From Bisporella sp. PMI_857 (Eukaryota > Ascomycota > Leotiomycetes > Helotiales > Helotiaceae): DNA of 64,000 nt. The notes beneath the pieces are model-generated. The model ran no database searches. It was not told the DNA's origin and worked only from the letters and a program-made list of their open reading frames with translations. This document shows positions 13,907-52,614 of this stretch, piece after piece. The stretch covers positions 558,001 through 622,000 of the forward strand of contig JAJSPD010000003.1 of NCBI GenBank assembly GCA_021307315.1, given 5' to 3'. Both the position numbers and the translations under genes were made by a program. Position 1 is the first letter of the stretch. The number at the start of each line of letters is the position of its first letter.

Positions 13907-15889
13907 TCACAAGGCAAACAACATTCCAGCTAGAGATGCGGACATGAAAGTGGCCAACGCACCGCATACACATGCAGAAACGGCCTCCTTTGCAAAGTCT
14001 CCTCGTCTCTCAGGCGAAAAAGAACCATAGATACCTAGCATAATAGCGATGGAGCCAATATTCGCAAATCCACAGATGCCATACACTGAAATGATCTGCG
14101 CTCGTTGAGAAAGGTCGGCATATGCAGCTCCGGTAGTGAGGGCTCCAAACGCAACGAACTCGTTCTGGATAGTCTTGATTCCCAACAGTTGCCCAACTTT
14201 GTATAACTCATCTCGTGGAACGCCCATAAGGAACGCAACAGGATAGAAGACATATCCGAAGATTTGCTCAATCGTCAAATTGGGGGCTTGGATGTACTTG
14301 AAGGTCCAGTGCAGAATACCGTTGGCAAGTGCCACCAAGGATATGATCACAAGAATATTTGCTAGAACCATACCAGCCACTTTGAGACCCAGCCATGCAC
14401 CATTGGCTAGAGCGTGTAGCACTCCAGTCTCTGTGTTGCCATCTTCCGGCTCCATATTGATGATCGAAATATGCGCCGTTGTCATAGGTTCTTCGGTCTC
14501 TGGTACCCGCATTTTGGAGATAACGATCGAGATCGGAATTGACATAAGACAGGACGAAATGACTGCTTGACCATTTGCACCCATACTACGTTGAGACGAA
14601 CGAGTTAGCGAAGGTACAACCTCAAGTTAGCATCCTGAACTTACTTGATGTATACAACCATGAGGGCTCCTGATATTGTTGCAAAGCCGCAAGTCATGAC
14701 TTGGTGGATCTCCGCCTGTGTCATATGGGGAATGAAGCCCTTTATTAGGATAGCAGCTTCACCCATCCCAAGAAATGGAGTAACAACTGCAACAACAGCC
14801 TCGACTCCTGAAATATTCAGCATCCAATAAAAGATGTATGAACACTTGGGAACAATCCATTGAATGAAGCCCTGTTCATGAGTATTTAGCTCAAGTCTTG
14901 TCACTGTAAGGTACGTAGTTACTTACTACATAGTACGCCATTTGCACTATTGCCGTGAAGAAGATGAAAACTGGAAGACTTCCAATGACAAACCAAAAAG
15001 ATTTGGATGTTGCTTCATCCGTAAGCCATGCCACCCCAACGTATGCGAAGGATAGGAATGTTGTCAAGGCTTTCGACAAAAACTGAAATATATCTTTCCC
15101 AAGGGTGGTACGGAGGACAAAGATAGCAATAATAAATTGCACCAGGATGCCCACAATCACTGAGCGCCAATTAATATGGCGTCTGTGTCTGCTCGTTATG
15201 TATAACCCCAGGAGGAAAACCAGATAGCCAAATAGACTGACAGCGCGATCCCTGCGTTTGTTGTATTCATTTTCGCCTGGCGCAAAAGCGCCAATGATAA
15301 CTGCAGCTAGGACGATGAAAGCGCCAACAGGTGTTCGAAACTTCTCGGGGACAATCTTTTCCATTTGTATAACAGTATGGCCCCAGACAAACCGAAATGG
15401 AATCAAGGCAAATCGTGCTGGGATGAAGAGCGTCACGATCCGAATTGTGATTGCGAGCCATAGCAAGAAAGGTTGAACCCAATTGTAGTAAACACGTCCA
15501 TCCTCCCCGTTTCTGTGATAAACCAAGCCCACTATCCACCAAGTTGTGACAAGCAACCAGCAGGATATGCAAATGACAAGCTTATTTGGCCGAATTCGTC
15601 TCCAGAGTTTCCGGAACGGACTGGATGTAGCATCAGACCGTTGGCCTTGTTCCAGATCTGGGTTGATATGGCTAGGCTTGCCCTGACTATCCAGATCATT
15701 GTTCGAATTGGTAGACTTCTTCTCAGAGAGATCAATTGGTGTGCTGGGTAACGAAGTGTTGGTGGCGCTCTTCGCTTTTATCTCTGGAGTTGCATTTTTC
15801 TCAAACACCGTTTCTTCCACCGGATTTCCGTATCGATCGTCATGCACAGTAATGGTGTGCGGCACCGAATGGGTTGGGGCCGTCGACAT
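13907..15889 (-). CDS. Concentrative nucleoside transporter (CNT family)
   Basis: Exons 15889-14927, 14871-14645 and 14585-13907 give 622 residues, with introns of 55 and 59 nt. An N-terminal hydrophilic tail of about 90 residues precedes about ten membrane segments. The central part contains the CNT core: a GxGE-like loop (FLGMGEAAILI), the segment MTCGFATISGALMVVYIN completed by the second splice, and the C-terminal region with FVAFGAL and CGFANIGSIAI. CNT proteins (human SLC28 relatives) are cation-coupled plasma-membrane importers of nucleosides. The gene is divergent from a nucleoside hydrolase across a 1.06 kb shared promoter, so imported nucleosides may be its role here. The ATG at 15889 is the first in frame and gives a complete family-length protein. 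Confidence 0.92.
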
Positions 15890-16950
15890 GATGACAGCCT
15901 GACCTTGGAAGCCTTAAATGGTTCCCAAAATTCGGGAGATGATGACAACGGTAGTCAGAAGTGTAGGGAACGTGAGGTTAATAAAGTTCAAAGGTAATGA
16001 GGCTTCCGCAAGCGACCGGGATTGGTGTAATTACTCAATATCGCGCGATAAGTGAACAACCTGGGAAAGGGAGAAAGGGGCTCCTGGTCATTGCTTAATG
16101 CAGTCGTGCTCAAGAGATTGTCAATTGATGGAAATTTAAAGCAATCGACAGCAATTGAATCAGAGAAGCAGATGAACTTGCATCACTGGCAGTCTGGTGT
16201 GCAGATTTCTGGGTTCAGGACGAGTTTTGAGCGTCTGAATTGCTGGTCCGCTGGCCAGTAGCAACGTAAGTCGAGGACGGATGCTGCACGCCCAATCATC
16301 CGATCTGCCTCTTTGGGACCGTCTCCCACGTTGTACTCGTCAAGTTTTGTGGAGGGGGGAAAGCAAAAGCAAACATCAAATATCGTTTACGGGGAAGCTA
16401 ATCCGTCTTGAGTAGCGGCGGATGTAAGCGTGGAGGGGGTTATGAATGGCGTACTGGCCTGTGCCCGGCTTTAGGCTTGAGTGAAAATAGGGGCATTGTA
16501 TAGGCCGTATAAATGCACGTATAGGTAGTATTCCAGGCGTTGATAGGCCGAGACAGTGGTCGCATCAACGCATAACCACACCACGCAACTAGTGGCGTTT
16601 TGTGTGTAGAAATGCCAGAGTACAAAGCTATGCAGAACATAATAATCCTCACCACCTTCCCAAGTCACACTTCGCAAACCGCCGCTGGAAAAGCCAGCTT
16701 CCTAGGCTTTGCGCGCCGAATGGTAATAATCGAGAGTCCAGCCCCGCTGCGGGGTGATATTCAGATCGATGGGAGACGGCGATAGCGCCTCAAGTCTACT
16801 TTTCCAAAACGACGAAAGCTTTAGGGGCCCTTACGTGAGCCCCAGGTCCACTCTTGTTATATCTACTTGACTGCGGCTTCCCTTTCACGATGGTCGTAGC
16901 TTTCTTTGGTGTCTATTCAGGGCTTACAGTTGGATTTTTGCCACTTGAAA
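15890..16950. promoter_or_regulatory. Shared divergent promoter of transporter and nucleoside hydrolase
   Basis: This 1.06 kb region separates the two start codons of a functionally matched pair, so it probably holds control sites for both. I found no clear operator. Only short meaningless frames occur. Confidence 0.45.
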
Positions 16951-18434
16951 ATGGCCCCTGAGAAGGTAATCATCGATACAGGTCGGTTGTTCTATCTAAA
17001 CTTCAAGACCAGATTACTGACGCAGATACATAGACCCGGGAGTCGATGACATTTTGGTCAGTACAATATATCAAGATCTTTGAGACTTCTGAGGCTTGCA
17101 GGGCATCATTGTGCCAATGCCTTCCAAAAAGCCGTACTGTCTTAAGCATAATTGATTCAGCGGCATTATTTTCTTATTTATACTTCGTCTCTCAATACTA
17201 CCGCTGTTTCATAACAAGCATCACTAACGTATGGCCTTTCATGTAGGCTATTGCGCTTGCTTTGAATCATCCAGAAAAGCTGGACGTTCTACTTTTTTCT
17301 GTAACGCACGGAAATGTAGGAGCGGTATCCTGCCTGAAGAACCTCGTAGCCCTACTCGGAGTGTTGGATGCTGAAAAGCTATTCCAAAAAAGTAACCGTT
17401 CTACGGGGAAACCACTCGTAGCCCTAGGTGCGGATAAGCCAATATCGAAGGAGCATGCACACGGTACACCTGACAACTCAAGGAGTTGGGAAGGTTTCCA
17501 TGGAATCGATGGTTTGAATGGTGTTCATTCCAAGGTGAGGCTCCCCACCATTTTTGACATAAGCACTCCAAGCAGAGTCTTCGTATCTGGAAGCTGACCG
17601 TTCTCGCAGTTGCCAGATCTAGTTTCTGCGGACTTTCGGGAATCATTCAATGCTGAGTCTGAACTTGCCAAAGCCTACAGCTACTTTCAACCTTCGTGCT
17701 TGCCAGCCCATCGAGAAATTCTCAATCAACTAAGATCGCATGAGCCAAAGACCATCACCATAGTAGCTATTGGACCTTGCACGAATCTAGCACTAGCAGT
17801 AGCCGAAGATGCTGTAACTTTTGCCCGTGTTAAGAAAATTATTATTATGGGTGGTGCAGTACGAGGGCCAGGCAATCAAACACCACGGTCTGAGTTTAAT
17901 ATTTATGCGGATCCTGATGCTGCGGCTGACATCTTTAACCTCACTTTAAGAAGTTTAGCACCCGAGCAACGAGTGGAGGTTGTTCTTGTCCCCCTGGATG
18001 TGACATGTAAACATGAACTCACTCAAGAAACGTGGGAAACGTTCTCGAAACCACTGGTCCAGTCCGGATCTCCCCTAGCGGTTTTCATAGATGGGATTCT
18101 TGATCGAACTTTTGAGAAGATGAGGAGCTTATTCAACAATGGAACTTTTGGATGTCATGACGCACTCACGATCCACTGTCTACTAGAACCCAGCCTTGTG
18201 AAATATGAGGATGGACTAGACATCCGGGTTGAGAGACATGGAGAGTGGACAAGAGGAGAAACAGTGCTTGACCAGCGACCATCAGTAATATGGAACGATA
18301 CCCTGGATGCAGTGATCCGCGATAATGGAGGTTGGGTCAGCGGTCTGGAGCGCAATAGCATTACGGTTTTGGCGTCATCTGGTGTAGATGGACCTGCCTA
18401 TGGTTTGAGGCTTTTAGAAGGCATATTTCTATGA
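16951..18434 (+). CDS. Inosine/uridine-preferring nucleoside hydrolase
   Basis: Exons 16951-16981, 17034-17056, 17247-17534 and 17610-18434 encode 388 residues. The first splice completes the family fingerprint DTDPGVDD (Asp9-Asp16), which binds the calcium ion and the ribose. Further hallmarks are the EFNIYADPDAA segment, the IIIMGGAV strand and a late GCHDAL segment holding the His-Asp pair. The enzyme hydrolyses the N-glycosidic bond of nucleosides, giving free base and ribose for salvage or as carbon and nitrogen source. The second exon is only 23 nt and intron 2 is 190 nt, but all phases agree. Its divergent neighbour is a nucleoside transporter, which supports joint function in nucleoside use. 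Confidence 0.93.
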
Positions 18435-36485: not shown

Positions 36486-38251
36486 TTAGAGCACATATCT
36501 GAAGCCTCTGGGAACAGAATTGCCCTCCTCATCCTCATCATATCCCTCGGCGCGATCCAGCTTCCTGTTCTCCCAGCTTAGCCAGAATCTCAAACAAATC
36601 GCAACAGTTGCACAAAGTCCGCAGAATAATGCGAGCGTAATGCCAGCAGTGAGATACCTTGGCTTCTGGGAGTTGGGATAGAGGTAGCTTGTGAAGAGAT
36701 GCGTGCAGTTGGCGAGAGAGTTCACCATTGCGAGTGCCGCAGCACGCTTGGACTTGGGTCTTGCGATGGTGGATGAAACCCAGGAAAGCGTGACGTTGAA
36801 GGCCGAGTAGACTCCCAAAGTCATCAGGAACATCGAGGCATATCTTCCAGCGGTCGAGGTCAGGGTCACGCAGAGGACGTTTCCCAGCATGGAGATTGTA
36901 AGCGGCAAGGCAATGTGGAAGCACCGCTCGTTCGTTCTACCGCTGTGGATTGAATTGCCGAGCGAGGTGAAGAATGCTAGAGCATAAGGAGGTGCGGTGA
37001 GGAGAAGTGTGGTGACCTTGTTGTAGCCCAATGTCGAGACAATTGAGGGGAAGAAGTAGGTGTATGCCATGCCAGTGAGAAGGGAGAATTGGAGAAGGAT
37101 AAGCATGTAGACCTTCGGATCTTTGAGGGCCTGAACCGCCCCAACCCATACACTCTCCCCGTCTTCGCCGTCTGCAACTCCGGCTGCCTCATCGGCGATT
37201 CTCCAGATTGCGAACTCTTTCTCCTCTGGAGTCAGCCATTTTGTTTCTAAAGACGAAATTAGTAAACATGAAGAGACTTTGAGCTTGTTGGGGCCATACC
37301 CTTTGGGTAGTTGGGCAAGATCAAAACGGCAACGAACGCAACGCAGATTGTGAAAACACCTTCGAGAATGAAGAGCCATCTCCAAGCACGAAGTCCGCCA
37401 ACGCCTTCCATCCCGCCAACAACACCCGCTGCGATCAACCCTCCGAAGCAGTTTGATAGGGTGTTTCCTGCATATAGAACCGCAATTCTGATATATTATT
37501 AGTTTGGTACCATTATCAACATGCAGGGTCAAATACCTCAATGGGAGCTCAGATCGGACATACCAAGATGTCAACATAAGTAGTGCTCCGGGGCTAAGAC
37601 GTGATAAGCAGGTAACCTTTTATTTGAAAGGGTACTCATACAAGAATGGAGCCTCAACGAAACCAAGGAAGAAACGGATAGCTACGACTCCTCCATAGGT
37701 TTTAGCAGAAGCCATTGAGGCAGAAACCTAGATCACAGTCAGCATACGCGGAAAGGTAAAGATTCTTTAATCTATTGGGATACTTACGCCTCCCCAAAGG
37801 ACAGCAGCGCAGGAAAGGTAGATCCCAGGACGAGGGAATTTTGACAGAATGACATTGCTGGGGAACTGGAATAGCAGATAGCCAACATACATAATCATCA
37901 AAGACGTGTTGTATTGATGATCAGTAAGTCCGATGTCGTCTTCCAAGCCTCCAAGCCGAGCATTTGTGAAGTTGTTTCTGTCAAGAATGCTGTATACCTA
38001 GATGAGCAATTGCTTTCAAGAGAGTGGATAGTAACATACTTCAGGAGGAAAAGGATGATGAGCATGGGCATGAGTCGAATGTCGATTTTGCGGACAAGTC
38101 TCTTCCGAAGGGCAGTTATTTCCTCTGGACTTTTATGTCGTAAGCTCTCTGGGAGCGTGCCGCTCACATACACCTCTCCTTTGGCTTTTTCATCCTTGAT
38201 ATCCTCGACTGTGTTGGGAGCTTGAATCTTCTCAGACGTAATGGTAGCCAT
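36486..38251 (-). CDS. MFS permease, anion:cation symporter (Dal5-like) family
   Basis: Six exons join in phase (38251-38040, 37989-37788, 37727-37636, 37593-37537, 37487-37300, 37246-36486) to give 503 residues with introns of 42-60 nt. After a hydrophilic N-terminus come about twelve membrane segments. The family signature LLNILDRNNFTNARLGG appears at the first splice, and PGALLMLTSWYVRSELPLR after the third splice marks the cytosolic loop of this subfamily. Dal5 relatives import allantoate, nicotinate, tartrate or other organic acids at the plasma membrane. Three CGGAAA elements lie 200-400 nt upstream. This ties the gene to the neighbouring A-T-R enzyme and suggests uptake of precursor or export of product. 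Confidence 0.85.
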
Positions 38252-39372
38252 TTTACGAGTTTTCTTCAATTCGAAAGAGACTGGGGTTTCGTCCTGTATC
38301 TGCTCTGGAAGGATCAAGGTGGATGCCAAATTTGCATGCAGGATATAACCATTTTATATATGCTAATCCATCCCCATACACACCCGAAGACCATGCCGAC
38401 CCCAGATCAATTGATGGTCTGGGGAAGTTCGCTGTGTGGAGAATCTCTCATGGCACATTTCCGAGACAGAAATAGTGGTGCGGAAATGCGCAATGTGGGG
38501 ATTATGGAGTTCCCCGCACTAGAAAATGGGATGACCCTGCAGTGCGGTGTAAGAACTCGCCTAGTTCACGGGCCATTACGGGATAGATGGTTGTTTTGAG
38601 AAGATGGCAATGAGCTGATGATCCTGTCGAGTTTGATTGCCTTCGGAAATACGACCTCATGACTCGAGTTGAGTTGGTTGGTACCCTTGTCGGGCGACCT
38701 AGAAGGACTCCAAGCTTACACAAGTTGATTTGTAGTTTAGACAACTATACCATGGCATCAACTTTCAGGGTGAGTAATTAATGTCACTATCGGTTGAGAG
38801 GTGGAAGTGCGAAGGCTAGATTGGCCACAAATGATTCTATACCTAAGCTACTTAGAGGCAATTAAAAAAGTGGCGACTTTAAACAGCATGACTAGCACTG
38901 AATGAACACATATATTTCTCTTACATTTACTTATGAATGAATAACACTGTTGATACATTATTTCAGCTTGCCGCAAGACAAGCCTTGTTTCCCCAAAGCT
39001 GTGGAACTCCGAGCTTTCGACATTCGGGTACCATTTTCGTCAGTCATTCTTTACTATGAACAGATCTATGAAAAATGCCCATGCGGAATACGCGTACAGT
39101 CAAAATTAGCAGCTGGAATGGGGTTTTTTTGGCTTGAAACATACCATCAGAAGCTTTTGCGAAAATGGGTCATTTGACTTGAATTGTGGTTGCGTTTCAC
39201 AACAATCAAGGACTTGTGGATGGGACAGGAACTCGTGGCCAAATTGGAAAGGACTCTATTTTATTCAAACCGGATTAGAAGCTAGAATTGACAGTGGGTA
39301 TTTAATCCTGTTTAGTAGAGGCCATAATTCGTATATCTACATACTTAACATTCGTGATTATTCTTAAAGTAT
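38252..39372. other. Permease promoter and 3' region of the A-T-R enzyme
   Basis: No gene is seen. The part next to the permease start carries the CGGAAA elements listed separately. The 38,650-39,372 part is A+T-rich with only short frames. Confidence 0.45.
38458..38650. promoter_or_regulatory. Three CGGAAA elements upstream of the Dal5-like permease
   Basis: CGGAAAT occurs at 38481-38487 and 38644-38650, and the reverse complement TTTCCG at 38458-38463. By chance one such 6-mer is expected about every 2 kb counting both strands. CGG is the half-site read by Zn2Cys6 proteins. The same element is dense in two other promoters of the cluster. Confidence 0.5.
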
Positions 39373-42300
39373 CTACAGGCTTTCTAACACGTCTAACACC
39401 TCAGCTAACACATCTTCTTGGGATCCTATAGCATCAACGGGAATAACATCGACTTCATCGTTCCAAGGCAATTCCAAACTTTGCAACTGACTCCCAATCA
39501 TCTGTACACCCATATAATGTCCTTCTCGCTCGCTCACTCTTCGCTCTAGTGTCTGATCGTCACATTGCAACATCAAGAAAACTGGCTTCATCACACGACT
39601 GTTCCGCAGCTCATCTCGATAAATTCTTTTCAACGCAGAACAGGTGACGATGACTTGCTCTGAGTCATTCTTGTTGAAGTCAAGTAAAGCCGTAGCTTTA
39701 AGTGTCTCAAGCCATACCCACCTGTCATTATCTGACAGTGCAACACAATTTGACATTTTGTCAATGGACATCTTTGAATGTAAATGGTCCCCTTCGATCC
39801 ATGAAATGCCGAGCGCTTTTGAAAGACTAGCTGCCACGGTTGATTTGCCTGTGCCACATGGTCCAGCAAAAACTATCAAGCGTTTCTTGATTTGAGAAGC
39901 CTGCACTGCCCAAGATGTCGCAAGGAAATGCGAGACAAACTTGCTAACCAATTCCTGGTTAAGAATGGGAGCAGCGGCCAGAGCTGGCGAAAGGTAACGG
40001 GCAAAAGAAGTATCATAAGTAAGGCCTGATTTGGCTATATCATTGTCGTATTTACTAGCGAAGAAGTCCACTAGTTTTATGGGTGGGTTTGACACTGGGT
40101 CGGAATTTGATGTGCGGAGAGCGTCGACCCAATCCCTTTGGTGGATCTCCTTGAAGCTAAGCCCAGCTTTGTGAAGTGCTGGAATCAGATCTTGAGTCCA
40201 GTGAAAGGATTGATGGTTGACAATATTTGTTACGCAAGTGTCAGCAGAGCTGAGAGAGATATCTAAAACGGCTGCTGCAACAACATCAACTGGTAACCAT
40301 AGAGGGTTTTCATCAAGTTTTGGTATCGCACCAATAGTAAGAGCGGATTGGATCATCAAAGGAATTGCCTCGGTGGCATTCCATATGCCATGAACTGTAT
40401 CAGCGATGACCTGCCCAATTCGCAAAACGCGAGCACGTATGCCATAGGATTTGGCAGCTGCTACGCAAATGTGTTCAGTGACAAGCTTTGACTGTGCATA
40501 TCCCATTCCTTGAGCATACTCAAGACTTTCGGGCAGATCTTCCCGCACAAACCCTCCCTTTGTGCGGGCTACAGTGCTCACAGAGCTGCAGAAATTAAAC
40601 GTTGCTGGCTCTGGTCGATGAGCCTTCAAGCACAATGCCATCAGATTATGAGCTCCAGAAATACAATCTGCCTCAAAGCTACCAAGACCTAGATTGAAAT
40701 TAACACTCCAAGCGCAATGAACGAGTCCAGTGATGTTTGATGCAAGTTCTGTGTATTTTTCTGGGCTTAGACCAAGAGACTCGTCGCTGAAGTCGGCTGG
40801 TAATGCCACAATCTTTCTGCGTGATTCGACGCCTAAGTTGTGATAAACGTAACGTTTCCGCAACGAGTTCCTCACACGAGAACGCGCATTCAAAGGAGAA
40901 GAGGCGCGGACAAGGCAGTAGACTCTTTTTACATCCAGGCGTGTGACAAGCCGGGCAACGAGATGTGCACCAAGAGACCCAGTGGCTCCAGTGACAACCT
41001 AGATAATACGTTAGAATGTCTCTGAGCACGTCAAACAATTGCAATTAACTTACCAAGTACTCTCCTTCCTTATCATTTGTTGTAGGGACATGAGGGGAGA
41101 AACTTGAATACTTCTGGATTAAGTTGTTCATCTTATCTGTTACCGAAATGACCTCGGACTGTCCGCCAATTCGCATGCGATAGAGTTCTTTAGAAAGAGC
41201 GCTGATAGATGGGAAATCAAACACGATATTGGCACCAAGCTGCTGCTTGTTGGTCTGGACATTCTTGCTGAGCACGCTACGAAGTTGAATACTTTGAAGC
41301 GAGTCCAGCCCTATAGAGAAGAGATCCGTCTCGTCTTTGATGATGGTATTGGTGCGGATGATTTTGAGGAGCTCCGTGCGAATATAAGTCTTTAATTCCT
41401 CTTCACTCAAGCACAGCTCTCCACTTGGGACGTCTGCTGCGGCATAGACGTGCTCAATCTGCTCAGAGAAGGTTCGGTAAAAAGCTGCTCGGATTACCGT
41501 ACCTTTATCGGTTCTGGGATAAGATGTACCATAAGGGAGAATTTCGACCATATCTAAAGATATCTGTGCATAGCCAGGCATGTCTTTGTTTGCTTCAGTA
41601 AGCGCAGGGACAAGCGCATTCCGAAAGTCGTCATTTGAGAGGTCTGCACCAGATTCCGAAGGGATTACCATGAGACCAGGTCGCGTCTTGCCATTGCCAA
41701 ACATGACTGCCTCAGCAATTATAGCTGAGGAGGCGCGGATCAGATGTTCAAACATGTTCGGGACAACTTTCTCTCCATTCATTAAAACGATGGTATCATC
41801 GAGTCGGGCAAAATATTTCCACGCATCGGGAATGGTGGGGTGAGCTGTAAATAAATCTTTCGTTGCATAAGAGTTATCTGGTCTGTTAGAGGCAACTTTT
41901 GATGACCAGCCATCAAGGACGATAAGCTCATAGATTCCAGGGCTTCGTAACTCCCACCTCAAATACGGCTTAACGGCATCACCAGCGCGAACATAATCCC
42001 AGGCAATGTCTCCAGAATCTCTGAAAGAAGTCATGAGCTGTCCTGTTTCGGTCGTTCCGTAATGGCTGATGAGATTTACTCCATTTTCAACAAGCTTATC
42101 TCCTAAAGCATCTGGACACGCAGAACCCCCAAACATGACTATTTTCAGCTTTGCTAGTGCAGCAGTGCCTTCTGGACTATCTCCGAGAAGTTTTAAGGCG
42201 TAAGGCACCCCATAGAATATTTCGAAAGAATACTTTTGCATAGTACTTAATAGGTTCTGTTGAGTGAGAGGAAGATCGGCGTTGTAGAGATAAATCTGTT

Positions 42301-43172
42301 TCCTTGAATGAATGCTTCGAAAGACACTGGAGATTCCATGAGCGTGGTACAGTGGAAGAGTAATGAACCCTCTCATATTAAGATTGTTAGCATAATTGTT
42401 GAGGGCGGCTTTGTGAGTCTGATAGATTGGTTTGGGAAGACCTGTAGTTATGAGAAGATTAGCAGGTTGCTCTATTAAAATTCATACAACGCCGCATACC
42501 TGTTGAGCCACTCGAATGAATAATCCATGATATTTTCTTTGTCTCAATCTCAGGATCGAGATGTGTGGACATTCTTGTGTCGACGCACTGATTGATGGTG
42601 AAATCGTATGATTCTGAAGTTGCAATATTATGGACCTGAAGACCAGGAATCTCACAGGTACCCTTAACCTCTTGAGCTACATCATTGAATGTAGAATTTA
42701 TCAACAAATGCTTAGCTCCTGTTGCTTTGAGAAGTGAGGAGTATGCAGCAACACTTATCCTGGTGGAAAGGAAGAGAACTGAAGCTGATAATTTGCTGAG
42801 CGCCAAGACGCTTATGAAGTACTCAAAGTTGGATGGCCCCAAGAGCCCAACAACTATCTCTGAATCCGATGAAGATAACCGTTGAGGAATGATATCTCTG
42901 TACCTCTGAGCAACACGCTGTGCAAAGACATCGATTTGTTGATAGGTATAGCTAACATAATCATTCCCGGACGAGGGATATGAAATGATTGTTTCATGTG
43001 GAGCTTCATGTGCTCGTCGTCTGAGTAGATCATCTATGGTAAGAATGGGCTCTGGTTCGGCAGTAAAATTGCTATTCGAATCCTCAATGTGTGCCGACTT
43101 AGTATATGATTGTTTCCAGGTGCCGTCCCATTCGACGGACGGCGAGATAATCTCAATAGCCGAGGGCGGCAT
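39373..43172 (-). CDS. Adenylation-thiolation-reductase enzyme fused to a gluconokinase domain
   Basis: Exons 43172-42500, 42441-41054 and 40998-39373 splice in phase to 1228 residues. The A domain (about 1-500) has the ATP loop HSSGSTGLPKP at the first splice, YGTTETG and a DxxVLxNGEK-like motif (DDTIVLMNGEK). The T domain carries its phosphopantetheine Ser at about 605 (IGLDSLQS). The R domain begins with VTGATGSLGAHL at about 689 and has the catalytic YAQSK (Tyr854, Lys858). From about 1059 the protein continues without a break into a complete GntK-type kinase: GPCGTGKST at 1066-1074, EGDHLHSKMSIDKM, DNDRWVWL, TCSALKRIYRDELR and REGHYMGVQMIGSQ. A-T-R enzymes activate an acid and release it as aldehyde or alcohol. 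The kinase suggests phosphorylation of a polyol, sugar acid or the released product. Substrates are unknown. Confidence 0.92.
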
Positions 43173-43794: not shown

Positions 43795-46299
43795 TTATTG
43801 CTCTATGATGAAGATCTCAACGGGATATAGACTTACACATGAATCAAATTCTGCCCAGCCAAGTTCGACCTCCTGGCCATACGATAGATATGCCTGATCA
43901 AATATTTGCATGGTGGCGTCGTTATGGCCATAAGCAGAAGGCTGCAAGTCCTGTGCTAATGGCATATATTCTATTGAATACCTATCGCGCATGTCCAGCG
44001 CTTGATTGGGAAGTCCTCTAGATTCTGCTAAGTCTGCTGATTGGGGAGGCTGGACTTCCAATTGACGACCCGATGCAAAGCTTCCAGAGTCTTGCCCTTG
44101 GGAGGTCAAGCGAATGACCTCTTTCTTTAGTTCATCTAGAATAATGTTGTAGCGCCTAAAGGGAGAGGTCGAGGCTGTCGTGGCGTAAATTGCGCGCTGG
44201 CAGCGATCTGCAGCTTCGAAATATTGCAAAGAAGCATCATGTTGTTCCTGGCCACTTGACTGGCCACTACTTTGTATCGTGTAAACATAAAGAGCAGAGA
44301 TGGCGCAAAAGCTGATATAATGGGTGAACCAGAAAGGCTTTCGCATTCTGCCTTGATCTAAAAGACCGTTGACGGTCTCAACGACGGCCACCGCAGCATC
44401 AATGCATTCTTTGAGGCCACCCACCAAGTTACCTGGGTATTGAGATGGCCTGCTTAGATTGACGAAGCGATCTAACAGGAGAGGCCGATTGGCGAGAATC
44501 AATGCGTGAAGATAAGCTAACCTCAATACAGTGCTCTGGCGTTGATAAATCGGAATGAGCATAGAGGGATCTACCTTGTCAGGCTCGAGGAATGCAGGTA
44601 GTGATTCCTTCCATGCTTTCAATTCAGACGTTCGTTGCTGTGCAATTTCGGTCCATGGCGTTGCTACATCTTTATTCGTGGGATATAGATCACTTGATAT
44701 TGACCCGACGATTTTTGCCAATCTACTTTGAAGTTAGCACAATGCCATAGAGAGCTTTGGGTATCGTTTTCCAAAGGCTGTGAACTAACGAACCTCGCAT
44801 GGAAGACCGGCGCGTCGGACACAGACAAGGTCTTGGATGGCTTGAACAATTCCGTATACCCTGCAGTAGAGAGGTCGTTGTTATTCAATCTTTCCGGTAG
44901 GTGTTGATCAATGTCTTCGTCCCTGAAAATTCGAGGGCGGCCGAGAATAACACTGAGATATTTATCTAGCGTATAGGCGCTCCAAAAAACACGCTTCCTG
45001 ATTTCAATCTCAATTGAGCTAGTCGATGCGCTAAAGGACTGGGTGTATCGTTTTCTATGCAAGCCCAGTGCCATGATCATTTGACTGGTCGTACCAAAAG
45101 TATACCAGGCCTGATTTATGCGAGATGACGCCAGCAAGTATATGCATAAGGCAAGCTTTGCCTGCACGGATTCCAATCGCACACGGCCGGTCTCACTTGA
45201 AAGTCTCACTTCAGCCGCGGCAAAAAGTTGGCCACTAAAAGATGTCAACCATTTGTAGCGATAATTGATATATTTAATAGTACCTGAGGACCGTCTCATC
45301 CGCATATTCCTTGTCAGTTAGCACATCCACTTCCTTCCCATATAGCGACGCAGTGGCTAGAACTAAAAGACATATAGCAGCTTCAGCACAGGAGAGAGGC
45401 TGCTTGTGATTGTTTGAGACTATTTGAGTTTCATCGTAGAAACGATCCAGCAAAAGTTCGGTTGTTTGACGATGTAGAAACCTGTAAGTAGGCATCGCAA
45501 AATCGAAATATCTAGCAAGAAGCGCATTTCCTTGCTCCTTCTCTGGATACTTTAATTCCGAGACAGAGTAGTTGGCCTGATAGCCATCGCCGAATGAGAA
45601 AATGGAGGCCTGAGAGGAACTACTTGGGTTACCGGACTTCGTAGCGGAGTCTTGTTGGAATCTTCTTTGAGCACGATAGAGGAACGCAATTGCAGACGTT
45701 GGACCAATATAATGGCCATCGAAGCGGGTCTCTTCCGGTTCCTGAGAGATCTCGCAAGAAGGCGATATAGGCGTTTGTAACCTCGTCTCAGGCAATGCCT
45801 GAGTAGATATCAATTCAGGAGATGGAGGTCTGCCTCTTCTGTGCTCAGAGTTATATTGACAGAACAAAGACTTTTTTGTACATCGTTGACAAGGTTGTGT
45901 GCCAGTGCACCGCAGCTTCCTACTGTACATAAACTGTAAGTTTACATGATTAAAAATTTGAAAGAATTGAGAAGAAAGAGCAAAGAACTTCAATGTTCAG
46001 AAATGTCATGGCACCAGAGAAAATTAGAATCCTGGGAATTGGCAAACAAAGAACAACAATGAAGTCCTCAGTTCTAGGAGCGACAAGTTTAACCTTTTGC
46101 ATGAATCGCAGGCTCGCGAAATTTTCTTTCTTTCTGCTTTCGAGAGTATTCGACTTTTCCTCTTTGCACTTGATCGGCCCTGGCTCCCATCTCTCTCATG
46201 ATAGGTGGCCGCCGAAGGCACCGAAATGGAATCTACGCCTTGAGCTTGAGAACTTGATGGCGTATCAGGAACCGTATGCGGAGAAGAATATGCATTCAT
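43795..46299 (-). CDS. Zn2Cys6 transcription factor, candidate cluster regulator
   Basis: Exons 46299-46094, 45922-45284, 45234-44794 and 44722-43795 give 737 residues. The Zn2Cys6 cluster is completed by the first splice (CDSCK + SRKLRC, Cys64-67-74, then TGTQPCQRCTKKSLFC). A Ser/Pro-rich stretch follows, then the fungal middle-homology region with IRKRVFWSAYTLDKYLSVILGRPR spanning about residues 330-355, and a long helical C-terminus. It is predicted to be a nuclear homodimeric activator. It lies between the A-T-R-kinase gene and the aldo-keto reductase and shares a bidirectional promoter with the latter. CGGAAA elements in that promoter and in two others of the cluster would fit control by this protein, including of itself. 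Confidence 0.88.
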
Positions 46300-46761: not shown

Positions 46762-47842
46762 ATGGCACTGAACCGGACTTTTACTCTCAATACCGGCGCA
46801 AAAATACCTGCTGTGGGGTTTGGCACCTGGCAAGCAGCGCCAAAGGAGGTTGAAAAGGCTGTCGAGATTGCCTTAAAGTCTGGCTATCGACACATTGACT
46901 GTGCTGCAATATATCGGAACGAAGCAGAGGTTGGCTCTGGTATCCAGGCGAGTGGTGTCAAACGAGAAGATATTTTTATCACTGGAAAATTATGGAATAC
47001 CAAACATAGGTAAGCTTTGTGCTCGTTTTATTTATCTATAGAGGTGCCAAAGTTCCTGTACAGACAAACCAGAAGCCTCACAATTTGTCTTATCTTTGAA
47101 ATTCTAATATACTCACAGACCAGAGGATGTCGAAGCCGCCTTAGATAAAACTCTCAAGGATCTAGGGACTAGCTATGTTGATCTCTATCTGATGCACTGG
47201 CCATGTGCTTTTAAGCCCGGTGATAAATGGTTTCCATTGGATTCGGAAGGTGTGTTCGAGCTCGATGATATAGAACCGTCTACCACCTGGACAGCTATGG
47301 AAGCGCTGCTTCAATCCGGGAAAGCAAAAGCGATAGGAGTCTCAAACTTCAACGTTAGCCGCCTTGAATCACTCTTGTCAACCTGCAAAGTTGTCCCTGC
47401 TGCAAACCAAGTCGAAGCCCACCCTTACCTTCAACAACCTTCTCTTCTTGAGTTCTGTAAAAACAAAGGCATAATTTTGGAAGCATACTCTCCCCTTGGA
47501 AACAACCAGACCGGTGAACCGCGGACGGTAGATGATGAGATTGTACACAAGGTTGGAAAGAAGTTGGGAAAGGATCCAGGTCAAGTCCTCGTGAGTTGGG
47601 GGGTGCAGCGTGGGCATGTCGTACTGCCTAAATCTGTAACAGCATCGAGAATCGCAAGCAATTTCCAAGACTTCGAAATACCTGCGGAAGAGATGGCCGA
47701 ACTCAACGCCTTAGAGCGACACAAACGATTTAACTTTCCCGCTCGGTGGGGGTACGATATCTTCCAGGAGGCTGGTGAAGAAGCAGTCAAGAGAATTGCG
47801 AAAGAAGCAGGCGAAGAAAACAAGACAAAGTTTACTGTATAA
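46762..47842 (+). CDS. Aldo-keto reductase (GCY1-like)
   Basis: Exons 46762-47009 and 47119-47842 encode 323 residues, the normal size for the family. The NADPH-dependent (beta/alpha)8 barrel is evident from FGTWQA near the start, and the catalytic tetrad is complete: Asp46, Tyr51, Lys76 and His109 ([22 protein letters not shown]). Later come [24 protein letters not shown] and the cofactor motif [10 protein letters not shown]. Such enzymes reduce aldehydes and ketones, including sugar aldehydes such as glyceraldehyde. Next to an A-T-R enzyme that can release an aldehyde, a role in reducing the product is likely. It shares a promoter with the cluster regulator. Confidence 0.93.
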
Positions 47843-50814: not shown

Positions 50815-51798
50815 TCAATCTACCTGACGTAATTTCGTAAAGCTATCATCCAAGGCATTGACAAGCGCATATAGTGTCCGCAGCAAAGGTGTCGATACTT
50901 TATGTTCCTTGCCGAGTTTGATCACATTGCCAACAATGGCATCGACTTCCATATTTCTGCCAGCTGAGGCATCTGCCATCATACTGGGTTCTACACCTAT
51001 TTGGCGTCTAGCCGCCATGCCTAATTGTCTTTCCACGGTCTCGGCATTTAGAGAGGTGAAGCCGGAGGCATTAGCTACGGAAACAACTTCAAGCATAACA
51101 TCACGGATGAAGTCCTCGGCGTCAGGACTCGAGTCCAAGAATGACCTGTCCCGAGATCTGGATAATGCACAGACCGGGTTCCATGCTGCATTCATGATAA
51201 CTTTTGACCAACGTTCTAATTGCACATCTTCGTGAAGCTCGGTTGTCCCGTTGCCTGCCGTAATCATTGCCGCGAACGCTGCAGCAGCATCCTTGGCTAT
51301 TGACGAAGCATTGCTTGGATATGTCCCGATATGAAGATGCGCGATATCTCTGTGCTGAATCACGCCTGGGGCCGTTTGAGTGGCGGGTAGGTAGACGACA
51401 GTGCTCAGCAATGGGTTGTTCGGAAACAACTTTGCAAACGGCTCTTCAATGGCAATACCATTTTGGACTAGAACGATACTTGTAGTCTCAGAGATAGCAG
51501 GCTTGATGAGCTCCGCCGTAGATGGGTCGCTCGGCACTACTTTAGAGCAGACAAGTATGTAGTCGAACGGTACAGGACTCAGCGCCACGGCCTCATTGAT
51601 GGAACGTGCTACAGTTGGTCTAACTTTCTGATTCTCACCCCACATCGTTGAATGAATCGTAAATCCGTCTTTTGAAGTTGCATCGTAATTAGACCTGCAA
51701 ATCGCAACAATGTTGGATTCTGGTATTGCACGGGAAATGATCAAGGCACAAACTGCGCCAATGCTGCCAGTGCCAAAAATCAGCACTCGGGGAGGCAT
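50815..51798 (-). CDS. Ketopantoate reductase-like (ApbA/PanE family) oxidoreductase
   Basis: This single-exon gene encodes 327 residues. The N-terminal Rossmann motif GTGSIGAVCA (residues 9-18) binds NADPH. The C-terminal helical domain has the family's Lys-Asn pair (RWSKVIMNAAWNPVCAL) and a later GRNMEVDAIVGN segment holding the conserved Glu. The family includes 2-dehydropantoate 2-reductase of coenzyme A synthesis, but fungi have many paralogues acting on other 2-oxo acids in specialised metabolism. At the edge of the A-T-R cluster, a role in reducing a 2-oxo acid or keto intermediate is plausible. It could equally be an unrelated neighbour, since no CGGAAA element was seen in its promoter. 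Confidence 0.85.
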   Translation of the reverse strand: MPPRVLIFGTGSIGAVCALIISRAIPESNIVAICRSNYDATSKDGFTIHSTMWGENQKVRPTVARSINEAVALSPVPFDYILVCSKVVPSDPSTAELIKPAISETTSIVLVQNGIAIEEPFAKLFPNNPLLSTVVYLPATQTAPGVIQHRDIAHLHIGTYPSNASSIAKDAAAAFAAMITAGNGTTELHEDVQLERWSKVIMNAAWNPVCALSRSRDRSFLDSSPDAEDFIRDVMLEVVSVANASGFTSLNAETVERQLGMAARRQIGVEPSMMADASAGRNMEVDAIVGNVIKLGKEHKVSTPLLRTLYALVNALDDSFTKLRQVD

Positions 51799-52614
51799 GC
51801 TAACGCTGATAATGATGATAATGACAATCAGATTGTTCCGAGGACTCGAGTGACTTTCTACTAAAATCTACAATGATTTCACTGTTTCATGTTTCTTGCA
51901 AATATGATAAGTTTACTTGATACATTGAGAGGCTAATGGAATATAAGTGCAGCCTCTCAGCAATTAGGTAGTTGTTGTCATTAGCCCCCCACCTATTGCC
52001 GCACGTGAAAATGGCAGTTTGAGGCGTTGTGGGAGCGCATTCTTAGCCCATGAGAATTTCAGGCTTCTAGAAACTGGTCACGAATCACATCTCGTCATTT
52101 GAGCATGCTCTCTCTAGCTTCCTTCGCCATCAGCTCAAACTTAAGCCACACCAAAACATCCAAAGTAGTCCAAAGAAACGATAGGTTTTTTATACTATAA
52201 GGAGCCTTTTCTCTCATGGTGCTTTCGCACTAGTCTTAACATTTTACACCTAAAATTGCTCCACAGCTGCTATATCTACACTGAGAGATTACGCCGGCCA
52301 CGTAGCATGTCTTTACTCATATCTACCTCTATTCCTTCGAATTTCTCAAGATAGACTCCTCACTTCCCTCCAATTACCCCTCCTCCTCTACGTCGATTAA
52401 CAGCCGTGCGCCCGGGACCAACGATACCACAGGTCGAACTTCAACAAGGCTGGGAAGAGGAGGGAGTGCCTTTGCACGAAACGGGCACCAGCTCGCAGAT
52501 TTCGAGGAGTTTGAGCTTGCAGACTTTCAAGGCATACAGGAGCGAAAGGAAAGGGAAACTAAGAGAGCGATCAAACGGGCTCAAAAACTCCGAGACTTGG
52601 AGGACGTAGACGAG
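51799..52614. promoter_or_regulatory. Divergent promoter region of the PanE-like and phosphate-transporter genes
   Basis: Apart from the CACGTG listed separately, no element stands out. Short plus-strand frames upstream of the transporter have no family match. Confidence 0.4.
52002..52007. promoter_or_regulatory. CACGTG box upstream of the phosphate transporter
   Basis: CACGTG is the core site of Pho4/NUC-1-type bHLH regulators of phosphate genes. It lies about 610 nt upstream of the SPX transporter start. A single copy this far away is weak evidence. Confidence 0.3.

Follow-up and report, generated by a model that had tools for sequence, protein, structure and literature searches.

The stretch of DNA analysed here (the window) spans 64,000 nucleotides of the genome of the fungus Bisporella sp. 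PMI_857 and carries a gene for an adenylation-thiolation-reductase (A-T-R) enzyme that is fused at its C-terminus to a kinase of the GntK fold (Table 1). The coding sequence begins with an ATG at 43172 and proceeds through exons at 43172-42500, 42441-41054 and 40998-39373 to a stop codon at 39375-39373. The two introns, of 58 nt (intron 1, 42499-42442) and 55 nt, are both bounded by GT..AG, the splice sites being predicted from consensus and from the lengths of homologues. On the spliced protein, Pfam recognizes AMP-binding, AMP-binding_C_3, PP-binding and NAD_binding_4 domains over the residue ranges given in Table 1, followed by AAA_33 at residues 1061-1187. The third exon is 1626 nt long including the stop codon, contains no internal stop, and encodes the thioester reductase (R) and kinase parts together as 541 aa. 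A preliminary description of this DNA, made from its sequence alone, had reported that R runs straight into the kinase within one exon of this length, and its coordinates proved exact.

Table 1 Features of the A-T-R-kinase gene and of its neighbours in the window
Feature	Position	Strand	Evidence
A-T-R-kinase fusion gene	39373..43172	-	1228 aa, three exons; spliced translation and open reading frames
Adenylation core (AMP-binding, aa 51-367)	42014..43022	-	PF00501 E 1.1e-34; spans intron 1
Adenylation C-terminal subdomain (AMP-binding_C_3, aa 439-560)	41435..41800	-	PF23562 E 6.8e-38; NGEK Glu448
Thiolation (carrier) domain (PP-binding, aa 578-642)	41189..41383	-	PF00550 E 9e-6; Ser605 in GLDSLQ
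Thioester reductase domain (NAD_binding_4, aa 689-930)	40270..40995	-	PF07993 E 5.4e-43; TGATGSLG, Tyr854/Lys858
GntK-fold kinase domain, aa 1062-1224	39388..39876	-	TIGR01313 161.8 bits; Foldseek 1knq TM 0.87
Kinase P-loop GPCGTGKS, aa 1066-1073	39841..39864	-	motif
Ser1098, site of Asn in stand-alone gluconokinases (E. coli chain position 47)	39766..39768	-	alignment
Zn2Cys6 transcription factor, directly upstream	43795..45996	-	Pfam PF00172, PF04082
MFS transporter, several exons (tentative pathway member)	36486..38353	-	best NCBIfam D-galactonate transporter TIGR00893, far below cut-off
Aldo/keto reductase exon (possible pathway member)	47108..47842	+	PF00248 E 2.6e-33
Ketopantoate-reductase-family gene (possible pathway member)	50815..51867	-	TIGR00745 200.4 bits, cut-off 141.35

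An AlphaFold2 model of the R and kinase exon (541 aa), computed from an input alignment of 48 proteins, reached a mean predicted local distance difference test (pLDDT) of 92.1 and a predicted template modelling (pTM) score of 0.91. In Foldseek comparisons, the modelled kinase part matched E. coli GntK (1knq) with a template modelling (TM) score of 0.87 by target length, and the modelled R part matched the Neurospora crassa carboxylate reductase (CAR; 8aep) with a TM score of 0.76 by target length and 26% identity in the alignment. For the adenylation exon, searching solved structures by sequence brought up weak matches alone (best E 5e-4). The N. crassa enzyme, NcCAR, is an A-T-R enzyme that is not known to carry a kinase. 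As reported for this type III enzyme, changes to its essential residues His237, Glu433, Ser595, Tyr844 and Lys848 abolish activity (PMC5826065). The Bisporella protein shares its A-T-R order, and the counterparts of these residues are His257, Glu448, Ser605, Tyr854 and Lys858, matched by motif and by a near-constant offset (20, 15, 10, 10, 10) rather than by alignment; Thr539 sits where fungal CARs, as described, have a hydroxyl residue in place of the A10 Lys, which in NcCAR is likewise Thr. His257 belongs to the PxxH motif of the adenylation core, which also has SSGSTG at 220. In domain order and essential residues the protein therefore reads as a predicted fungal carboxylate reductase of the A-T-R type, which resembles non-ribosomal peptide synthetases (NRPS-like).

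The distribution of the fusion was followed with two protein searches. The first used residues 980-1228 as the query and retained proteins of 0.55-1.75x the whole length, yielding 111 proteins; the second, with a kinase-less relative as the query, matched 1265 proteins, 120 of them listed. Together they supplied 212 long proteins, to which the Bisporella fusion was added (n=213). The kinase was present in 125 of the 213, scoring >100 bits against a model derived from 120 fungal stand-alone kinases; this share does not reflect prevalence, as the kinase was what the first search aimed at. Among these 125 kinase-bearing proteins, 97 reach a length of at least 1100 aa, and the adenylation motif SSGSTG is present in 95; in the 96 fused proteins of at least 1100 aa other than the Bisporella one, the patterns PxxH, GxDSLQ, GYAQSK and TGxxGxxG occur in 96, 94, 93 and 88, respectively. 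The carriers include members of the genera Colletotrichum, Fusarium, Trichoderma, Penicillium and Aspergillus, and the nearest fused relative among the proteins compared is P0001 from Stipitochalara longipes (74% identity over the A-T-R columns). The same domain order in many named fungi shows that the fusion is neither a chance event nor an assembly join, and the preliminary description was right about the fusion. That the gene model or the assembly has joined what are really two separate proteins is hardly credible, and we rejected it: the model rests on DNA sequence, not on RNA, but R and kinase are read from a single exon without interruption, and many fungi sequenced independently show the same fusion, their full-length proteins mostly being 1180-1245 aa. 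The A-T-R-kinase is a single protein composed of adenylation, thiolation, reductase and GntK-fold kinase domains.

These counts also leave unsupported the suggestion that the architecture is rare, and two papers list it. Phialocephala subalpina belongs, like Bisporella, to the Helotiales. Its protein PAC_02202, of 1227 aa and with the same domain order, is tabulated as 'A-T-R-Kinase' and assigned to secondary-metabolite cluster 5, the entry giving neither the type of kinase nor a function (PMC5148876 Table 5). Aspergillus flavus AFLA_054270, of similar length (1251 aa) and like the Bisporella fusion in domain order, is tabulated as 'A-T-R-gntK' (PMC4073137 Table 2); there it counts as a backbone gene of secondary metabolism whose cluster includes a transcription factor, no product is given, and expression of 0.0-0.3 RPKM (reads per kilobase per million) is tabulated in four strains. 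Both were likened to the Bisporella fusion by their published descriptions, not by sequence, and by its length, close to the ~1230-1250 aa of these proteins, and by its kinase after R, the Bisporella protein fits this tabulated A-T-R-GntK class (PMC4073137, PMC5148876). Searches of the open-licence PubMed Central (PMC) literature showed us no characterised A-T-R-kinase, and within that literature the earlier remark, that its author was not aware of a characterised enzyme of this kind, stands. A survey of 84 fungal CARs in seven clades has neither 'kinase' nor 'gluconokinase' in its main text (PMC9605436), and it was set aside as a source of a clade or a substrate. Verticillium ANN3 was likewise dismissed as a characterised relative, since what is described for it is an AMP-ligase and a carrier domain together with five membrane helices (PMC13065033). 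The architecture is thus already known in print but, as far as we found, uncharacterised.

The kinase had been described as a complete gluconokinase with every GntK hallmark. Its score against the NCBIfam GntK model TIGR01313 (161.8 bits) lies well over the curated cut-off of 113.75, and with E. coli GntK and the fungal stand-alone gluconokinases it shares the fold and the P-loop, EGD, CSAL..YR, GHY/F and Q motifs; unlike them, it sits on a multidomain protein. We counted residues, in E. coli chain numbering, in the 125 fused kinases, in 120 fungal stand-alone GntKs (the best 120 of 2864 matches) and in 80 bacterial ones (the best 80 of at least 589). Every one of the fused kinases, which were picked by a score >100 bits so that decayed ones are left out, keeps the P-loop Lys, Asp40 of EGD, Arg95 and Gln137; Arg124 and Ser88 are each kept in 124/125, His43 in 121/125 and Arg62 in 120/125. 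This retention of catalytic residues speaks for a working kinase. In contrast, the Asn at position 47, which is found in 120/120 fungal and 79/80 bacterial stand-alone enzymes, occurs in 0/125 fused kinases, where it is replaced by Ala (97) or Ser (22), together 119/125, and otherwise by Asp (3), His (2) or Thr (1). In the Bisporella protein, Ser1098 takes the place of this Asn within the D-x-x-H-x-x-x-N-x-x-K motif, and CVAL stands where the G-x-P-L stretch would be. Neighbouring positions are relaxed as well, Lys50 being kept in 81/125, Gly54 in 66/125 and Pro56 in 71/125. The fold, the P-loop, the catalytic residues and the model score accord with GntK, but, contrary to the original claim, not every hallmark is present, and the name gluconokinase is doubtful.

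It may nonetheless be argued that the domain is an ordinary gluconokinase that phosphorylates gluconate or a close aldonic acid, while the reductase acts on that sugar acid or one related to it. Beyond the TIGR01313 score, this would agree with its match to the stand-alone GntK gene of the same genome (40% identity with the second exon across 134 residues), with the name 'gluconokinase' that many members bear in UniRef (database names, their basis not shown), and with the D-galactonate transporter model that is the best NCBIfam match, far below its cut-off, of the neighbouring transporter. We consider it unlikely on account of the Asn replaced in all 125 fused kinases and the relaxed positions around it, and because a stand-alone gluconokinase is already encoded in the genome (contig C2, C2:1009669-1010216). 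The GntK family can be strict, as the narrow range of human gluconokinase indicates, which is reported to have accepted, of 122 compounds, gluconate and its lactone alone (PMC4045858). Given the replaced Asn and the stand-alone enzyme already in the cell, the acceptor of the fused kinases probably differs from gluconate. Two points weigh against this: the position-47 Asn might be structural rather than a contact to the sugar acid, and both comparison sets are top-ranked, the 120 fungal sequences being close to one another. Elsewhere in the assembly, a gluconokinase-like stretch below cut-off, with three stop codons inside, lies at C129:1901-2050 on a 19-kb contig.

For the origin of the fusion, a FastTree phylogeny of the A-T-R part was built from 185 proteins of at least 1000 aa, of which 181 had a recognisable R end and were thinned to 106 rows. 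All 54 kinase-bearing rows fall inside one 67-row clade, which also nests 9 kinase-less and 4 decayed or cut-off rows; the 39 rows on the other side of the tree are all kinase-less. A tree of the kinase domain, thinned to 84 sequences (34 fused, 22 fungal stand-alone and 28 bacterial), unites all 34 fused kinases in one clade with a Shimodaira-Hasegawa-like approximate likelihood ratio test (SH-aLRT) support of 97. Fused and fungal stand-alone kinases group together against the bacterial ones with support 88, which does not by itself identify the source of the kinase. As the fused kinases form one clade inside one A-T-R clade, the trees support a single origin and do not support several independent gains; they fit one fusion event that would have been followed by repeated loss or decay of the kinase. 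The genome's own long paralog, on contig C1, reached no placement in the A-T-R tree.

Against this history stand the kinase-less and decayed rows nested among the kinase-bearing ones. By parsimony, the kinase label needs a minimum of 11 changes along the tree, of which well-supported branches force at least 10, and this number cannot tell losses from gains. Eight nested kinase-less rows (P0107, P0109, P0295, P0296, P0297, P0302, P0322 and P0329) end after R, where short gene models are possible, and P0104 ends in a kinase remnant. Among the others, P0102 and P0103 are decayed, having lost the P-loop Lys; P0105 lacks an internal segment; P0330, which breaks off within the P-loop, was counted as decayed; and P0294 is a partial record. 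We read these rows as losses together with gene-model faults. Kinase-less Aspergillus sisters such as P0108 (A. alliaceus; 55% identity to the fused P0001) likewise end after R.

Several relatives have no kinase or a decayed one, so the A-T-R part does not need it, which also bears on whether the kinase matters as an enzyme at all. The domain could have ceased to phosphorylate any metabolite and bind ATP in a structural or regulatory role within the reductase, to which the decay of P0102 and P0103 and the otherwise normal A-T-R proteins without the domain would be congenial; the pTM of 0.91 for R and kinase, a global score, also hints at fixed packing in the model. We regard this as quite improbable, because a remnant would hardly need all four catalytic residues that the 125 score-selected kinases keep without exception. 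A degenerate kinase is rejected for the Bisporella fusion by these residue counts and applies to P0102 and P0103. The losses among relatives indicate that acid reduction does not depend on the kinase step.

Among the neighbours that a secondary-metabolite cluster around the fusion might comprise, the Zn2Cys6 regulator recurs with A-T-R genes repeatedly and the transporter weakly. In 25 kinase-less A-T-R models from Aspergillus and Talaromyces, nearly all from Aspergillus and ~1700-1830 aa long, a homologue of the regulator forms the N-terminus. These are either neighbouring genes merged repeatedly in annotation or a true fusion, and they imply that both genes lie side by side in those fungi too. 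When a regulator of this merged type was searched against the Bisporella genome, the regulator of the window was the best match and a gene at C1:1238129-1239915 the second; the regulator exon of the window as the query gave the same C1 gene with 127.7 bits, the next match having 52.7. The C1 regulator lies ~3 kb from the closest reductase paralog of the genome, which shows no kinase, and we infer that the pairing of regulator and reductase is old. The C1 locus as a whole (C1:1231507-1240567, ~9 kb) brings together the A-T-R gene without kinase, the paralog nearest to the regulator of the window, and an MFS transporter. Near it, at C1 1224597-1225565, is a myo-inositol oxygenase gene, with a KAR9-family gene between.

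The MFS transporter downstream of the fusion gene has a homologue at the C1 locus, yet this is only its fifth-best match in the genome, and a conserved regulator-transporter-A-T-R cluster was therefore retained for the regulator alone. With the splice sites tried, the exons of this transporter do not join in one open frame, so that either the introns are wrong or the gene is damaged. A second MFS transporter lies on the aldo/keto reductase side of the fusion gene; neither it nor the aldo/keto reductase nor the ketopantoate-reductase-family gene matched anything in the 40 kb examined at the C1 locus. Farther off in the window, at 13907-18434, a Na+-dependent nucleoside transporter (two exon open reading frames, minus strand) and an inosine-uridine nucleoside hydrolase (plus strand) stand close to each other and may form a nucleoside salvage pair. 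Contigs C241 and C263 gave identical scores for an AAA_33 gene and a regulator gene and may share a duplicated or haplotype-like stretch.

With a real fusion and catalytic residues kept in both reductase and kinase, two activities on one chain are the natural reading, and we lean, with some reserve, towards an enzyme of two activities in which the kinase works, though probably not as a gluconokinase. The adenylation domain would convert an organic acid to its acyl-adenylate, the thiolation domain would carry the acid as a thioester, and R would release the aldehyde with NADPH. The C-terminal kinase would then use ATP to phosphorylate a hydroxyl of a small molecule in the same pathway, the acceptor being the hydroxy-acid substrate or a hydroxy-aldehyde or alcohol made from it, and probably not gluconate. 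Phosphorylation may be an optional extra step, as some related enzymes keep the A-T-R part without the kinase. The proposal in the preliminary description that the released product or a partner is phosphorylated on the same protein is partly supported in this form, stripped of the gluconokinase label. A broader version, which we put forward tentatively and with more doubt than conviction, is that the fused kinases constitute a distinct small-molecule kinase family with a non-gluconate acceptor. On one protein with A-T-R, and controlled by a dedicated regulator, they would make a phosphorylated aldehyde or alcohol from a hydroxylated organic acid, by a route as yet undescribed in fungi.

To an architecture already in print, the present analysis adds that the fusion probably arose once and then lost its kinase repeatedly, that the fused kinases lack the position-47 Asn, and that a regulator recurs beside the reductase. 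Many fungi carry the fusion, and searches of the open-licence PMC literature yielded no product for it. If its kinase acts on the substrate or product of the reductase, this would be the first CAR with a built-in phosphorylation step known to us, and the database name 'gluconokinase' would mislead for the fused proteins.

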